A stretch of DNA of 64,000 nucleotides from Sandaracinus sp. (lineage in GTDB: Bacteria > Myxococcota_A > Polyangia > Polyangiales > Houyiibacteriaceae): the NCBI GenBank assembly GCA_002699025.1, contig PABA01000089.1, positions 1 to 64,000 of the forward strand. The letters are read 5' to 3'. The notes under the pieces were generated by a model, which was given only the letters and a program-made list of their open reading frames with translations, was not told the origin of the DNA and made no database searches. The position numbers and the translations under genes were made by a program. Of this stretch, positions 3,843 through 12,110 are shown piece after piece (position 1 is the stretch's first letter; each line of letters starts with the position of its first letter).

Positions 3843-4991
3843 ATGGTCATGGTGGAACGCACGCACGACGACACGCCGGGGGGACCCGCCCCTCGCACCC
3901 AGGTCCCCCTGCTCATCCTCGCCGGCCTCGCCCTCGTCTACGCCCTGAAGGTCACCGCCTTCGTCACGATGCCGCTCGCCTTCGCGACCTTCATCGTCGT
4001 CGTCGCCTGGCCCCTCCACCGCTTCTTCGGCGACCACCTCCCGAAGCCCCTCGGGCGCATCCTCACGCTCCTCGTGCTCCTGGCCGGCGTGGGCGGCATC
4101 ACGGCGCTCCTCTACGTCGCCTTCGAGGGCTTCGTCGCCGACCTCCCGAGCTACGCCGAGATGCTGCGCGAAGCCGAGCGCTCCGTCGCGACCTACCTGC
4201 CCGGCGGCATGTCCCTCGCCGACGGCGTGGGCAGCGCCGCTCCCGCCCTCGCCTCGACGCTCCGCGGCTTCGCCTTCCGCGCGACCATCGTCGTCATGAC
4301 GCTCACCCTGACCGTCCTCGTCGTGGGCGAAGCCTCGGACTGGCGCGAGCGGGTGCAGACCCTCGCCGAGCGGCACCGCCCCTCGCTGCTGACGACGCTC
4401 GAGCACGTGGCCGATCGCTTCCGCCGCTACATGTTCGTCCACACGCTCGTCAGCCTCCTGATCGGCGTCATCACCGGCCTCGCGGGATGGGCCGCCGGCA
4501 TCCCGGACCCGCTCGTCTGGGGTGTGGTCGCGTTCCTCCTCAACTACATCCCCAACCTCGGCTCCTTCCTCGCCGTGCTCCCACCGATGTTCCTCGCCTG
4601 GTCCCACCACGGCTGGGGCTCGGGCCTGCTCATGGGCTTCGGCCTCGGCGCCTCGCACTTCGTGATCGGCCAATGGATGGAGCCCTACGTGCTCGGCAAG
4701 AGCCTGCGCCTCTCGCCGGTCGTCGTGCTCCTCTCCGTGCTCCTCTGGGGTTGGGTGTGGGGCGTCGGCGGCGCGCTCCTCTCCGTGCCGATCACCGTCG
4801 GCCTCCTCGCGCTCGTCGAGGGGCATCCGCGCTGGGGCTGGATCGCCGAGCTCTTCGCCAACGGCACGCTGCGCGCGGAGACGGAGGCGGGCCGAGGCGA
4901 AGAAGCGGGCCGAGGCGAAGAAGCGGGCCGAGGCGAAGACGGGGAGCGCGACGCCGCGCTGCTCGACGAAGCCGCCGCGTCTACAGCGTGA
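3843..4991 (+). CDS. AI-2E family (PerM/YdiK-type) transporter
   Basis: About 382-residue polytopic membrane protein with the AI-2E/PerM layout: two or three N-terminal helices (PLLILAGLALVYALKVTAF...), a soluble segment, and a C-terminal block with the family-typical NYIPNLGSFLAVLPP and GKSLRLSPVVVLLSVLLWGW regions. Members export or exchange small molecules; the substrate here cannot be predicted. The ATG at 3843 is listed, but the ATG at 3849 is better placed behind AAGAGG at 3836-3841. The C-terminus ends in an 18-bp tandem repeat (about 4887-4940) encoding repeated GRGEEA, a charged tail. Confidence 0.85.
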   Translation: MVMVERTHDDTPGGPAPRTQVPLLILAGLALVYALKVTAFVTMPLAFATFIVVVAWPLHRFFGDHLPKPLGRILTLLVLLAGVGGITALLYVAFEGFVADLPSYAEMLREAERSVATYLPGGMSLADGVGSAAPALASTLRGFAFRATIVVMTLTLTVLVVGEASDWRERVQTLAERHRPSLLTTLEHVADRFRRYMFVHTLVSLLIGVITGLAGWAAGIPDPLVWGVVAFLLNYIPNLGSFLAVLPPMFLAWSHHGWGSGLLMGFGLGASHFVIGQWMEPYVLGKSLRLSPVVVLLSVLLWGWVWGVGGALLSVPITVGLLALVEGHPRWGWIAELFANGTLRAETEAGRGEEAGRGEEAGRGEDGERDAALLDEAAASTA

Positions 4992-6084
4992 GCGTCGCCT
5001 CGAGCATGGCCTCGAGCTCGCCGAGCGTGCGCAGGTCGTGGTCCCGCTCGGCGATGGCGACGGCGGCCACCCCGGGCGCGACCTCGTCCCGGAAGCGCCG
5101 CGCGGCCTGCAGCGCGTCCTCCTGCGCCTGGAGCAGCTCGGCCCGGAGCGCGAGGAGCCGGGCCGCGAGGTCGTTCAGCGCGTCCTCGCTCAGCGTCGGT
5201 CGGGCGCCCGGCGGCTCGAGCGGGTGGTCCGCCCCCGGCTCCGGCACCCAGCTCTGGTTGAAGACCACGAGCTCCGGCGGCAGGTGCCGCTCGGCGAGCT
5301 GCTCGGCCAGGTGCCGCGCGTCGTCCATGCTCGTCGGCGCCGTCGACGCGATGAGCAGGTAGGCCGTCGCCTCGTCGCGGAGGAGCCCCCGGGTGACCTC
5401 GGCGCGATGCTGAAACCCCTCCCGGAGGTGCGCGAGCACGCGGAAGAAGGCGACCAGCTCGTCCACGATGGTGTCGCCCGCGAGCTTGCCGAGGAGCTTC
5501 AGCGCCGCCGCCCCGCCCATGCCCGCGAGGCTCGCGAAGGTGCCGCCGAGCCCGCGGCGCTCCTCGAGGAACCACTTCAGCACGCCCTCGTCGAGGAACT
5601 GCGCGAGGCGCGAGGGCGCGTCGAGGATCTCGAGGGCGTTCCGGGTCGGCGGCGTGTCGAGGACGACGAGGTCGAACTCGCCGCCGTGCATCACGTCGTA
5701 GAGGCGCTCGGCGGCGACGTAGGCGTGCGAGCGCGCGAGCGTCTTGCTGAAGGCCTGGTAGACGCGGTTGTCGAGGATGCGCTCCCGGGCTTCGCCCTCC
5801 GCGATGCGCCCGATGAGCGCGTCGAAGGACTGCTTGGTGTCGAGCATCGCCGCGTGGAGCGTGCCGGGCGCGACGCCCGGGGCGGGTTGGAGCCGGTCGT
5901 CGAGCCCCTCGAGGCCGAGCGCGTCGGCGAGGCGCTTGGCCGGATCGATGGTGAGCACGAGGGCGCGCTTGCCCGCGCGCGCGGCGCGGAGCGCGAGGGC
6001 CGCCGCGGTGGTCGTCTTACCGACGCCGCCGGGGCCGACGCAGACGACGAGGCGACGCTCGAGCAGCGCGTCGAGGGCGCTCAC
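4981..6084 (-). CDS. ArsA/Get3-like ATPase, second subunit (no signature lysine)
   Basis: 367-residue ArsA/Get3-family P-loop ATPase. The Walker A reads GPGGVGKTT (residues 17-25), so the intersubunit signature lysine of the deviant Walker motif (normally GKGGVGKT) is replaced by Pro18. Switch I has TIDPAKRLADAL. Switch II has DTPPTRNALEIL. The C-terminal half carries the helical client-binding-like region (FLEERRGLGGTFASLAGMGG). It starts at GTG 6084, overlapping the stop of the partner ATPase gene by four bases, so the pair is translationally coupled. Such pairs resemble the actinobacterial Rv3679/Rv3680 heterodimer. The gene is convergent with, and slightly overlaps, the AI-2E gene end. 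Confidence 0.85.
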   Translation of the reverse strand: MSALDALLERRLVVCVGPGGVGKTTTAAALALRAARAGKRALVLTIDPAKRLADALGLEGLDDRLQPAPGVAPGTLHAAMLDTKQSFDALIGRIAEGEARERILDNRVYQAFSKTLARSHAYVAAERLYDVMHGGEFDLVVLDTPPTRNALEILDAPSRLAQFLDEGVLKWFLEERRGLGGTFASLAGMGGAAALKLLGKLAGDTIVDELVAFFRVLAHLREGFQHRAEVTRGLLRDEATAYLLIASTAPTSMDDARHLAEQLAERHLPPELVVFNQSWVPEPGADHPLEPPGARPTLSEDALNDLAARLLALRAELLQAQEDALQAARRFRDEVAPGVAAVAIAERDHDLRTLGELEAMLEATLTL

Positions 6085-7010
6085 GCCGCGCCCTCCGCGA
6101 GCTGGGAGACGAGGGCGGCGCCGAGAGCGCCGAGCGCCGCGCGGGAGGGGGCCCGGCGAAGCGTGCCGAGCTCCGGGAGCTCCACGCGCGGGAGGGGGAT
6201 GCCGGCGCCGAGGTCGTCGATGCAGCGGCGCGCGAGGGCGTGCTGGGCGAGGGCGCGCTCCGCGAGGGCGACGTCGGCGGCGAACCCCTCGCGGCGGGCG
6301 AGCTCGGGGAGGAGGGCGCTCTCGGGCTCGCCCAGGGGGGGCGCCGGGACGCGGTTGACGACGAGGTAGCCGAGCCCGACCGGCGGCCCGGCGGCGAGGT
6401 GCGCGTGGAACTCGAGCGTCTCGCGAGTCGGGAGCGGGGCCGGGAGCGTGACCAGGTGGAGGGCCGTGCGCTCGCGGTCCCGGAGCAAGGCCGTGGTGGC
6501 GTCGAGGAGCGCGCGGAGGGGCCCGGTGGGGCCGACCAGCCCCTCGAAGACCTGCGGCAGCGAGAGGAACATGCGCGCGTGGCCCGTCGCGTCGAGGTCG
6601 ACGAGGATCGGGTGGTGCTCGCCGCGCTCGGCGAGCTCGGCGAGCTTGCGGAGCGTGACCACCTCGGCGACGGCCGGCGCCGCGTAGAAGAAGCGGCGGA
6701 GCGTCTCGTTCGCCACGACGCGCTTGGCCACGCCGCGGACGCGCACCTGGGCGGCGATGTAGTCCGTGAGCGCCTCGTCGAGCTCCATGTTCAGCGCCGC
6801 GACGCCGTCGCCCACGGGGGTCGGCTCGTAGCCGATGGCGGGGGCCTCGAAGAGCGTCTCCATCGTCGCCCGATGGCCGAGCTCCACGACCAGAGGCCGG
6901 TGCCCCGCCTCCGCCGCCGCCAGCGCGACCGCCGCCACGACGGACGACTTGCCGACGCCACCTTTGCCGGTGAAGAGCTGGACGCGGTGCTGGAACGGAT
7001 CGAGGGCCAT
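6081..7010 (-). CDS. ArsA/Get3-like ATPase, first subunit (signature lysine present)
   Basis: 309-residue ArsA/Get3-family ATPase. The deviant Walker A GKGGVGKSS (residues 15-23) retains the signature Lys16. The switch-II region reads LVDLDATGHARMFLSLP instead of the canonical DTAPTGH. The ATG at 7010 (MALDPFQHRVQLFTG) is chosen because the motif then lies at the usual position. The upstream in-frame extension is low-complexity and looks spurious. It overlaps the downstream paralogue by GTGA. The two differ in their active-site residues, which suggests a heterodimer in which this subunit supplies the trans lysine. Client (tail-anchored proteins, anions or others) unknown. Confidence 0.85.
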   Translation of the reverse strand: MALDPFQHRVQLFTGKGGVGKSSVVAAVALAAAEAGHRPLVVELGHRATMETLFEAPAIGYEPTPVGDGVAALNMELDEALTDYIAAQVRVRGVAKRVVANETLRRFFYAAPAVAEVVTLRKLAELAERGEHHPILVDLDATGHARMFLSLPQVFEGLVGPTGPLRALLDATTALLRDRERTALHLVTLPAPLPTRETLEFHAHLAAGPPVGLGYLVVNRVPAPPLGEPESALLPELARREGFAADVALAERALAQHALARRCIDDLGAGIPLPRVELPELGTLRRAPSRAALGALGAALVSQLAEGAA

Positions 7011-7522: not shown

Positions 7523-9358
7523 ATGGAGCCCACCCCCCGCGAGAAGCTGCGCAACATCGCGATCATCGCCCACGTCGATCACGGAAAGACGACGCTGGTC
7601 GACGCGATGCTGCACCAGACCGGCGCCTTCCGCGCCAACGAGGACGTGCAGGAGCGCGTGCTCGACTCCAACGACCTCGAGCGGGAGCGCGGCATCACGA
7701 TCCTCGCCAAGCACGCCTCGGTGCGCTGGCAGGACTACAAGATCAACATCATCGACACGCCGGGCCACGCGGACTTCGGCGGCGAGGTGGAGCGCACGCT
7801 GCGCATGGCCGACGGGGCCCTCCTGCTCGTCGACGCCGCCGAGGGGCCGCTCCCGCAGACGCGCTTCGTGCTCGGCAAGGCCATCGAGCTCGGCCTGCCG
7901 ATCCTGGTCGTCATCAACAAGATCGACCGCAAGGACGCGCGCCCGGACGAGGCCCTGAACGAGGTCTTCGACCTCTTCGTGGACCTCGGCGCGAGCGACG
8001 AGCAGGCCGACTTCGCGACCCTCTACGCCATCGGCAAGGACGGCGTCGCCAAGCGCGAGATGGAGGACGAGGCGACGGACCTGCTCCCGCTCTTCGAGAC
8101 CATCGTCGAGAAGGTGCCCGCGCCGACGCAGGACCCGGAGGCGCCGCTCCAGTTCCTCGTCCACAACACGCTGCACGACGAGTACGTCGGCCGCCTCGCC
8201 ATCGGGCGCATCTGGGCCGGCCGCGTCTCCCAGCGGCAGCGCGTCGCCCTCATCGGCCCCGATGGCGCGGTCACGGAGCACGAGATCGGCACGCTCTGGG
8301 GCTTCGAGGAGACCGAGCGCGTGCGCATCGACGCCGCCGAGGCCGGGGACATCGTCGCCGTCAGCGGCATCGCCGAGGTGGAGATCGGCGACACGCTCGC
8401 GGACCCGAAGGAGCCGAAGGCGCTCCCGCGCATCTCGGTCGAGGAGCCGACCATCAAGGTCGAGTTCCGCGTGAACACCTCGCCCTTCGCGGGCAAGAGC
8501 GGCAAGTACGTGACGAGCCGGCACGTGCGCGACCGGCTCTTCAAGGAGGCCCAGCGGAACATCGCGCTGCGCGTCGAGGAGACCGAGGATCCGGAGGCCT
8601 TCGCCGTCTTCGGGCGGGGCGAGCTGATGCTCTCCATCCTCGCCGAGACCATGCGCCGCGAGGGCTACGAGCTCGCCATGGGCATGCCGCAGGTCGTCAT
8701 CAAGGAGACCGAGGACGGCAAGGTGGAGCCCTACGAGCGGGTCGTCGCGGACGTCGACGAGGAGCACGTCGGCGCCATCACGCAGGCCCTCGGCGAGCGG
8801 AAGGGCCAGATGGTCGGCATGCACAACCTCGGCTTCGGGCGCGCCCGGGTGGAATTCCGGCTGCCGGCGCGCGGGCTCATCGGCTTCCGCTCGATGTTCC
8901 TGACGATGACGCGCGGGAGCGGCCTGCTGAACACGATGTTCGACGGCTGGGAGCCCTACCTCGGGCCGATGCTCCGGCGGAAGAACGGCGCGATCGTGAG
9001 CGACCGGAAGGGGTCCACGACGCCCTACGCGCTCTTCGGCTTGCAGCCCCGGGGCGTGCTCTTCATCGGGCCGGGTACGGAGATCTACGAGGGGATGATC
9101 CTCGGCGAGCACAACCGGCCGAACGACCTGGACGTGAACGGCACGAAGGAGAAGAAGCTCACCAACGTGCGCGCGGCCGGGAAGGACGAGAACGTCGTGC
9201 TGACGCCGCCGGTGGATCACACGATCGAGTCGGCGCTCGAGTGGATCGACCAGGACGAGCTGGTGGAGATCACGCCGGACGCGATCCGCATCCGCAAGAA
9301 GGTGCTCGAGTGCAACCGGCGGCCGCGCCGGGACGGGCCGAAGAAGAAGGACAAGTAG
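7523..9358 (+). CDS. typA: Ribosome-associated GTPase TypA/BipA
   Basis: 611-residue translational GTPase. The N-terminal G domain has G1 AHVDHGKTT (residues 16-24), G2 with RERGITI, G3 DTPGH and G4 NKID. These are followed by the EF-G-like domains II, III and V and the TypA-specific C-terminal domain (DKFG-like [32 protein letters not shown]). BipA acts on the ribosome during assembly and stress adaptation. Full length for the family (about 600-615). The start ATG follows a G-poor leader without a strong SD. It is transcribed alone. Confidence 0.97.
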
Positions 9359-9433: not shown

Positions 9434-10312
9434 TCAGAACCAGACGAGGAGCGCGGCCCAGCCGAGCCAGAGCGCCTGCGTGGCGAGGCCCTGCGCGAAG
9501 ACGAAGCCGAGCACGTGCCGGCGGCGGCGCACGTCGAGGGCGAGCGCGACGAGGAGCGGCAGGACGGCGAAGGCGAGCGCGCCGCGGCTCTCCCGGGCGG
9601 GGCTCGTCGCGATGGCGAGGTAGATGGCGGCGAGCGTGACGCCGAGGCAGGCCCAGGCGGCGCGGACGCGGCCCATCTGGACGGGCCAGGTGCGCTTGTC
9701 GGCCCGGCGGTCGGCGGCGTGGTCCGGGAGGGCGGTGGCGACGTTCCCGGCGAGGGCGAGGAGGCCCGTCGCGGCGAGGGTCGGGAAGGGGTAGGCGTCG
9801 AGGTCGCCGGCCTGGGCGGCGAAGCCGAGGAGCGGCAGGACGACGCCCACGCCGACGCCCTGGAGGAGCTCCCCGCCGCCGCGGTAGCTGAGGCGGAGCG
9901 GCGGGAAGGAGTAGGCCCAGAGCAGGCCGCCCGCCGCGCCCCAGAAGGCGATGGCCCAGGGGGTGCGCCAGGCGGCGAGCACGAGCGAGAGCACACCGAG
10001 GAGCGCGTAGGCGGCGAAGGCGCCGCGGAGGAGCGCCGAGGCCGTGAGCTTGCCTTCCGGGAGGACGCCCGAGCCGCCGCTGAAGAGGGTCTTCGCCTCG
10101 CCGCCCTCGTCGTGCTCCCGATCGGCGACGTCGTTGGCGAAGACGATGAAGAGCTGGTCGAGGACGCCCCAGAGCGCGAGGGCGAGGAGCACGCGGAAGT
10201 CGAAGCGGCCGGTGGCGTAGTAGGCGAACGCCTGCCCCAGGAGCAGCGGCGCGGCGAGGTTCGCTTGAGCGAGCGGGCGGGCGGCCTGCACCCAGTGGCG
10301 GAGCGTGGCCAT
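9434..10312 (-). CDS. UbiA-family prenyltransferase (MenA-like)
   Basis: 292-residue membrane protein with eight or nine hydrophobic helices and the two Asp-rich UbiA motifs: NDVADREHD (first, binds prenyl-diphosphate Mg2+) and DHAADRRADKRT (second). Overall order is like 1,4-dihydroxy-2-naphthoate polyprenyltransferase MenA, but the aromatic acceptor cannot be fixed from sequence. ATG 10312 overlaps the stop of the upstream FG-GAP gene by one base (TGATG), so the two are coupled, an odd functional pairing. Confidence 0.85.
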   Translation of the reverse strand: MATLRHWVQAARPLAQANLAAPLLLGQAFAYYATGRFDFRVLLALALWGVLDQLFIVFANDVADREHDEGGEAKTLFSGGSGVLPEGKLTASALLRGAFAAYALLGVLSLVLAAWRTPWAIAFWGAAGGLLWAYSFPPLRLSYRGGGELLQGVGVGVVLPLLGFAAQAGDLDAYPFPTLAATGLLALAGNVATALPDHAADRRADKRTWPVQMGRVRAAWACLGVTLAAIYLAIATSPARESRGALAFAVLPLLVALALDVRRRRHVLGFVFAQGLATQALWLGWAALLVWF

Positions 10313-11868
10313 CAGCGCACCGTGGTCCGCACGACGAAGGGCGCGTCCGCGAGGGGGCTGGCCTCGTCCGGCCGCGCGAGCGCGTCGAGGCGCGGGCGCT
10401 CGGCGACGAAGAGGTCGAGGGCGCCGTCCTCGAGCTCGGCCCAGAGGAGCGCGGCGGCGTCCTGGATGCGGACCCAGGCGAGGCCCTGGACGCCGCCGTC
10501 GACGCCCTCGCGCTCGGTGAGCGGCCGCTCGCGCCAGGAGGTGGCGCCGACGCGCTCGAAGAGCACGAGCTGCTGACCGTAGGCGAAGACCTCGGCGCAG
10601 CCGTCGCCGTCCACGTCGGCGACCTGCGCCGGGATGGCGGCGTGGTGGGAGGCGGCGACGAGGCGGAGCGAGGCCCCCTCGAGGCTCTCCCGCTCCCGGG
10701 CGTGCAGCACGGCGAGCCCGCCGCTCCCCCCGACGAGCACGTCCGGGTGACCGTCGCCGTCGACGTCGCCGCTCGTCAGGCCCCAGTGGTGCGCGGCGTC
10801 GATCGCGACGGCCGGGTCGAAGCGGAAGCCCTCGCGTCGGCGATGCAGGTGGAGCGCCTCGTCCGAGCCGACGACGACGTCGCGCACGCCGTCGAGGTCG
10901 AGGTCGGCGAGGGTCACCTCGCGCGCCCACTTGCCGGCGTCGAGGGTCGCGCGGCGACGGGGCCGCGTGGCGCCCTGGAAGACCTGCACGCGGCCGGGCT
11001 GCTCGGCCCAGGGGCGCCCGCGGTCGACGGCGAGGACGTCGAGGCCGCCGCGGCCGTCGAGGTCGACGAGGGCGACGGTCTGGAAGGTGGACTGAGCGAC
11101 GGGGAGCGGGCGCGCGAGGCCGGTCTGGGTGCGGCGCCAGAGGAAGAGGCGGCCGCCGCGGCTCCCGCCGCTGGCGGCACGGAAGTAGAAGGGCAGCACG
11201 GCGTCCGGGAGGCCGTCGCCGGAGACGTCGCCGACGGCGGGGCCGGAGGTGTGGAGGGGCACGTCCCGGCGGCTCTCGAGGGTGAGCACGGCGACACGCA
11301 CGGGGGCGAGGCCGGCGGGGCCCGGGACGAGGCCGACGACGACGAAGCGGTTGGCGCAGCCGACGACGATCTCGGGGGTGGCGTCGCCGACGAGGTCGCC
11401 GAGGGCGAAGGCCCGGTCGAGCGCGTGGGTGATGCGCACGGCGTCGTTCTCGGGCTCGCGGGCGCCGTAGCCGGCGTCGCAGACGCGGACGCGGTGGGTG
11501 GGGCCGGCGGGGCCGGTGTAGGGCTCGGGCGCGCCCGTGTCGGGGCGGGGGCCCGCGTCCACCGGGCCGGCGTCGATCGGACCGGCGTCCACCGGGCCGG
11601 CATCCTCCACACCTGCGTCGGGGCCCGCGTCGATCGGGCCCGCGTCGATCGGGCCCGCGTCGCTCGGGCCGGCGTCGATCGGGCCGGCGTCCACCGCGCC
11701 GGCGTCTTGCACACCGGCGTCTCGCAGGCTCGGGTCGGCGCCGCCGCCCAGCCGCACCGGCTTCAGGACGCCCGCGATGGCGCCGATGACGGCGAGCGAG
11801 GCCCACACACCGACGAGGAGCAGCAGCGTGATCCCGATGGCGCGGAGGGCCTGCATGGGCGGGAGCAT
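10312..11868 (-). CDS. FG-GAP/VCBS-repeat protein with Asp-Ala-Gly-Pro linker
   Basis: 518-residue protein starting at ATG 11868 (MLPPMQALRAIGITLLLLVG), with one signal or anchor helix. A linker of DAGPxDAGP repeats (encoded at about 11560-11720, 15-bp periodicity) follows. The C-terminal 370 residues contain FG-GAP-like calcium-loop repeats: GDVSGDGLPDAVLPF, DLDLDGVRDVVVGS, GDVDGDGHPDVLVGG and ADVDGDGCAEVFA. This implies a secreted or surface-anchored beta-propeller. A further in-frame upstream ATG at 11997 would add 43 residues with no signal character. It is coupled to the UbiA gene. Confidence 0.8.
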   Translation of the reverse strand: MLPPMQALRAIGITLLLLVGVWASLAVIGAIAGVLKPVRLGGGADPSLRDAGVQDAGAVDAGPIDAGPSDAGPIDAGPIDAGPDAGVEDAGPVDAGPIDAGPVDAGPRPDTGAPEPYTGPAGPTHRVRVCDAGYGAREPENDAVRITHALDRAFALGDLVGDATPEIVVGCANRFVVVGLVPGPAGLAPVRVAVLTLESRRDVPLHTSGPAVGDVSGDGLPDAVLPFYFRAASGGSRGGRLFLWRRTQTGLARPLPVAQSTFQTVALVDLDGRGGLDVLAVDRGRPWAEQPGRVQVFQGATRPRRRATLDAGKWAREVTLADLDLDGVRDVVVGSDEALHLHRRREGFRFDPAVAIDAAHHWGLTSGDVDGDGHPDVLVGGSGGLAVLHARERESLEGASLRLVAASHHAAIPAQVADVDGDGCAEVFAYGQQLVLFERVGATSWRERPLTEREGVDGGVQGLAWVRIQDAAALLWAELEDGALDLFVAERPRLDALARPDEASPLADAPFVVRTTVR

Positions 11869-12110
11869 AGTACCGGCGGCGCGCCCGAGCCCGGGACCGG
11901 GTGCGTGTTTTCGAAGGGCCCGACCGAACGCCCCAGCTCCCCAGCACGCCCGGGGGGCGCTCGTCCCTCGTGCTCGTACCCGGTGGTACCCGGGCACGCT
12001 ATCGTCCCCGACCTCCGGATGGAATCACCGGCGAGGTCGGACCGCCGCGATGACGCCCCGGCCGAAGCCCTTCGAGCGCGGACGGCTCCGGCTCCGAGGC
12101 GAGCCCGGGC

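Follow-up and report, generated by a model that had tools for sequence, protein, structure and literature searches.

Two ATPase genes of the ArsA/Get3 kind stand next to each other in Sandaracinus sp., one of them with and the other without the signature lysine of the P-loop, which raises the question of whether their products form a heterodimer in which one subunit lends its lysine to the active site of the other. The genes lie in a stretch of 64,000 nucleotides, called the window here as a whole, and the following features were placed on it.

6081..7010, minus strand: BagA-like subunit (A), 309 aa, signature lysine present, without the long helical insert
6945..6968, minus strand: P-loop of A, GKGGVGKS, residues 15-22, with Walker Lys21
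6963-6965, minus strand: signature Lys16 of A, codon AAA
6876..6878, minus strand: Gly45 of A, in ELGHR where B has TIDPA, aligned with the switch-I Asp of B
4981..6084, minus strand: BagB-like subunit (B), 367 aa, GTG start
6081..6084, minus strand: GTGA overlap of the A stop (TGA, 6083-6081) and the B start (GTG, 6084-6082)
6013..6036, minus strand: P-loop of B, GPGGVGKT, residues 17-24, with Walker Lys23
6031-6033, minus strand: Pro18 of B, codon CCC
5944..5946, minus strand: switch-I Asp47 of B (TIDPA)
5377..5583, minus strand: helical insert of B, residues about 168-236, absent from the A model

The pair shows the BagAB-type arrangement, with bagA followed directly by bagB on the same strand. 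The gene coordinates, the two P-loops and the switch II motifs (DLDATGH from D138 in A; DTPPTR from D143 in B) given in the initial annotation were all recovered on the translated genes, as was the overlap of the B start with the A stop, and a GGAGG sequence was found immediately 5′ of the GTG start. That annotation had also considered that a sequencing error might have made the proline. The assembly is a draft of 238 contigs, but CCC differs from either lysine codon at all three bases, and the orthologues carry P or V at this position in the 26 window-type loci, which together exclude such an error. Moreover, both frames are open with a high GC3 (0.97 in A, 0.98 in B), and dN was lower than dS in a comparison with locus L042, a weak indication. 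We therefore regard it as extremely improbable that the proline stems from a sequencing error or from decay of the pair.

Both genes matched the Pfam family ArsA_ATPase (PF02374; 65.4 bits for A and 80.7 bits for B, with a cut-off of 24.3). The top NCBIfam match was BagA for A (93 bits; equivalog cut-off 400) and BagB for B (252.5 bits; cut-off 521), and since both scores fall below the cut-offs, the two proteins are relatives of BagA and BagB and not the named equivalogs. A sequence search of solved structures placed A closest to chain A of 6bs3, Rv3679 (E 3.4e-19), and B closest to chain B, Rv3680 (E 2.9e-59). The same chains were the top structural rows for single-chain models, each built from a 29-row alignment: 6bs3_A for the A model (mean pLDDT 91.5; Z 30.0, rmsd 2.8, 297 residues) and 6bs3_B for the B model (mean pLDDT 84.6; Z 30.4, rmsd 3.8, 334 residues). 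The resemblance to Rv3679/Rv3680 proposed at the outset was thus borne out, with one chain closest to each gene by sequence and by model and the same lysine asymmetry in the alignments. Between switch II and the following strand lie about 97 residues in the B model, which form helices at 152-165, 168-177, 184-202 and 204-236, and 44 residues in the A model, with helices at 142-156 and 164-177. The extra helices of B sit at the place of the client-binding helices of Get3; the pLDDT falls below 50 at residues 183-188, inside this insert.

In BagA/BagB (Rv3679/Rv3680; PDB 6bs3-6bs5; NCBIfam NF053622, NF053621), as in the window pair, the signature lysine occurs in A only, the printed alignments have DPA in B only, the fold of each chain matches its window counterpart, and the A gene precedes the B gene (Mycobacterium locus L164). 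Given that the 6bs3 chains are already asymmetric in the alignments, the asymmetry pre-exists in the known pair. The P-loops differ, being GKGGTGKS and GAGGVGKT in chains A and B versus GKGGVGKS and GPGGVGKT in the window, so that BagB has Ala at the signature position where window B has Pro, and at the switch-I position BagA has Glu where window A has Gly. Window A and B are relatives of mycobacterial BagA/BagB, a known kind in a new branch, and the same unequal pair occurs in mycobacteria and other bacteria. Literature searches, of which one named myxobacteria, found no study of bagAB-like genes in this group, and we know of no client or mechanism for BagAB pairs. For mycobacterial bagAB, passages of PMC10597346 describe insertions that affect citrate tolerance and cite a link to glycerol and nitric oxide, and passages of PMC12216072 describe transposon effects on survival under streptomycin and rifampicin.

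With Get3/TRC40 the window pair shares the fold (Z about 20 to 28), the P-loop and switch II. Get3 is a homodimer with the signature lysine in both copies and a zinc-binding CxxC at the dimer interface. Window B has Pro18 instead of the lysine, and each window subunit contains one cysteine, which makes both a CxxC zinc pair and the Cys triad of ArsA impossible within a subunit. The Pfam name of both genes and the presence of ArsA chains among the structural matches of both models point to an anion pump ATPase driving arsenite export, and the tandem A1-A2 units of ArsA are likewise unequal and of the same fold. However, both ArsA halves keep the signature lysine (GKGGVGKT) and are fused in one chain, whereas the window has separate genes with Pro in B; the triad is missing, as noted; and none of the sampled neighbour genes, in the window and at related loci, matched an arsenite pump by Pfam. 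An ArsA-like role is therefore very unlikely.

We then read the lysine position across relatives. The first sample comprised the window, 80 Myxococcota stretches and the best 80 of 374 confirmed loci of named genomes, the titles of which include Actinomycetota, Desulfobacteraceae, a Bdellovibrio and a planctomycete. Two of the Myxococcota stretches cover PF02374 places in the genome from which the window comes and the others surround B-like places, most of them taken in the list order of a search with a match in 216 of 235 genomes; the named genomes were scanned with the peptides T[IA]DPA[RK]RLA and [CVA][VA]GxGGVGKT (x free). After identical sequences had been merged, 134 A rows and 155 B rows remained; two A rows (L127, L159) lack a P-loop, and in one B row (L043) the P-loop is not readable and its aligned letter was ignored. 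A spacing regular expression matched 39 of the 134 A rows and 130 of the 155 B rows, and no result rests on it. The signature lysine was present in 132/132 A rows and in 1/154 B rows (L182), the best 80 of 374 named-genome loci included. Eighteen planctomycete pairs were added, from which L229, a copy of L182, and L247, which has no P-loop, were dropped; there were no other repeats. With these, again including the best 80 of 374, the lysine was found in 150/150 A rows and 2/172 B rows (L182, L230), and was thus absent from 170 of the 172 readable B rows, a sample in which lysine-keeping relatives may be under-represented because of the scan peptides and because most loci were found through their similarity to B. 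The concern that orthologous second subunits might retain the lysine did not materialise, as the two that do belong to one distant planctomycete lineage. In B the lysine was replaced by S, P, A, T, V, C or G; what is conserved is only its absence. A check on the conservation of the proline, as suggested initially, gave a divided answer: the non-lysine state was kept, but the proline itself varies, with P in 21 and V in 5 of the 26 window-type loci with a readable B P-loop.

The Asp of the switch-I DPA motif is catalytic in Get3, and a second asymmetry was observed at this position. In B the Asp was present in 155/155 aligned rows (best 80 of 374 included), though DPA in the named-genome half was partly selected for by the scan peptide. 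In A, the 132 rows of the same sample had D in 50, E in 49, G in 18, N in 7, S in 6, and A and H in one each; of the 27 window-type A genes, 26 had Gly here and L201 had Ser. The Walker lysine of A was replaced in 6 of 150 rows (Thr in L080, Asn in L178, Arg in L105, L239, L243 and L248), all of which still have the signature lysine, while B kept its Walker lysine in 172/172 readable rows, the best 80 of 374 again included. This contrast (6/150 versus 0/172; Fisher p 0.01, with kinship ignored and draft assemblies included) is small, and some of the draft-assembly rows may be erroneous. The A rows tolerate damage to their own site and never lose the donor lysine, and no other observation in this analysis argues more strongly for trans action.

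Judging from these patterns, the pair probably has one working ATP site. We propose that A and B would form a heterodimer of the BagA/BagB kind with a division of labour. The working site would be held by B, with Walker Lys23, switch-I Asp47 and switch II, together with the helical insert, the counterpart of which in Get3 binds hydrophobic clients, and Lys16 of A would reach across the dimer to complete it. B, with Pro18, would have no trans lysine to give to the site of A, which in the window branch also has no switch-I Asp (Gly45); lacking both, this site is expected to bind nucleotide but to turn over little or none of it. Overall, we consider it likely that the pair is such a one-site heterodimer, with ATP bound and hydrolysed at B, the client helices also on B, and Lys16 contributed by A. 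Stop-to-stop frames from the first 16 kb of the window and from the related loci L039-L198 (best 80 of 374 included) contained no natural A-B fusion.

Trans action of the signature lysine is accepted for Get3. It is also the accepted model for MinD, according to passages of PMC10482377, which add that mutation of this lysine caused no significant change in the ATPase activity of a mycobacterial MinD homologue. In passages of PMC8262871, beta-type 1 McdA, a member of the ParA family, lacks the signature lysine, as window B does, and these passages mention no lysine-bearing partner ATPase for it. The lysine is therefore not always needed, and the main rival is that its absence from B says nothing about trans action: ATP may be hydrolysed without it by B or by both subunits, with A as a structural or regulatory partner. 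However, A has lost its Walker lysine in 6/150 rows, its switch-I Asp often and its signature lysine in 0/150, and such constancy amid the loss of its own site is hard to explain if the lysine does nothing for B. We thus hold the lysine-free reading to be unlikely, and the conservation patterns strengthen the trans-lysine idea. Two points sit less well with one-site hydrolysis. The Asp kept at the switch-I position of A in 50 of 132 rows counts against it. Further, a 2020 study (Whitaker et al.) reportedly found an in vivo requirement for intact ATP-binding motifs in Rv3679 as well as in Rv3680, a poor fit with a dispensable A site.

The two B rows with lysine belong to planctomycete pairs, L182 (2955-5107) and L230, in which both subunits carry the signature lysine. 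Matches in the class of L182 were found in 2 of 23 genomes, G379 (its own) and G400, both of which keep the lysine in both subunits; the G400 B is 73% identical to the L182 B. In the phylum as a whole, 16 of 294 genomes had a match at 1e-30. A quick tree was built from 74 B and 9 A rows, with long branches flagged. In it the L182 B branched first in the B group, although the fork joining the other 73 had a support of 84, which is not strong. The window's branch held 11 rows with a support of 100, and Pro versus the rest required five changes, with Pro in three separate groups. Tentatively, the two-lysine planctomycete pairs may preserve the state of an ancestor with both lysines. These pairs are new here; our literature searches, which did not name planctomycetes, found no study of them.

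We further considered what the client of the window branch might be. Two genes upstream of bagA bear on this.

7523..9358, plus strand: TypA/BipA-type GTPase gene, between bagA and the UbiA gene
9434..10312, minus strand: MenA-like UbiA prenyltransferase, 292 aa, Pfam UbiA 84.5 bits

All NCBIfam matches of the UbiA protein were below their cut-offs, and a search of solved structures with E up to 1 gave no match for it. A 561-aa frame for an FG-GAP repeat protein (10312-11997, minus strand) ends where the UbiA gene begins. When four UbiA proteins were searched by tblastn against the window and L039-L198 (best 80 of 374 included), only window-branch loci matched. The linkage was then counted in 192 genomes of the class, of which 27 had a window-type A (E at most 2.3e-49). 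A window-like UbiA (E at most 4e-33, a threshold set once the list had been seen) was present in 27/27 of these and in 26 of the 165 others, counts that ignore kinship. It lay within 3 kb of the window-type A in 19 of the 27, namely within 300 bp in 18 and, in the window, at 2,427 bp with the typA/bipA-type gene in between; in the other eight it was on another contig in seven and 2.09 Mb away in G177, a single contig. Of the 47 A places that follow in the list, two (G094, G125) had a UbiA within 3 kb. A partial A in G342 (57% identical over 117 residues, UbiA 2.3 kb off) was excluded from both counts. The orientation relative to bagA varies, being the same strand in L042 and divergent in L044. 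A UbiA neighbour also distinguishes the window branch from BagA/BagB, a comparison in which the neighbours at actinobacterial loci are known as clusters only. This linkage to a MenA-like UbiA is new here, and literature searches, which did not name UbiA, found no study of it.

By analogy with ArsA-ArsB, the window-branch BagAB might be the ATP-driven partner of the adjoining UbiA, delivering, assembling or energising the enzyme or handling its lipid substrate. Against a dedicated client, 26 genomes have a window-like UbiA without a window-type A, and the window's own genome has six UbiA-family places. We consider this partnership quite improbable. At L054 (1857-4497), L056, L063, L067 and L068, a gene for a conserved protein of about 250 aa stands next to bagAB with a UbiA gene on each side; this protein had no NCBIfam match (L045, L054, L056) and no Pfam match (L045).

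The window's genome also holds a second bagAB-like pair (L040:5665-7697, G000 C99), with GKGGVGKS in A (283 aa) and GGGGVGKT in B (394 aa), both on very long branches; it lies near a TonB-dependent receptor gene. An A-like gene with GKGGVGKT (L041:5609-6538, G000 C18) and a B-like gene with GSGGVGKT (L039:437-1636, G000 C156), the latter preceding a nucleotidyltransferase/hexapeptide gene, each have no partner beside them in their stretch; being on different contigs, they are possibly a split third pair. At many Myxococcota loci (L061, L062, L065, L074, L079 and others), bagAB is flanked by gyrB- and gyrA-type genes and often preceded by a fabH-type gene; these neighbour clusters, each named from one representative, occur in 27, 13 and 14 loci. 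The conserved gene 3′ of bagB in this group (15 loci) was considered as a tail-anchored client and rejected, as none of 12 sequences had a C-terminal hydrophobic stretch. An N-terminal one was found in 3 of the 12, and by eye the product looks like a secreted or outer-membrane protein.

Taken together, the alignments make asymmetric active sites a rule across the rows read. The one-site model predicts that Lys16 of A is essential and that A's own Walker lysine is much less so, and the two-lysine planctomycete pairs provide a natural control for it. The adjacent UbiA enzyme offers a concrete membrane-protein candidate for the putative hydrophobic client and, if that reading were true, the window branch would be a bacterial Get3-like heterodimer with a genomically predicted membrane client.
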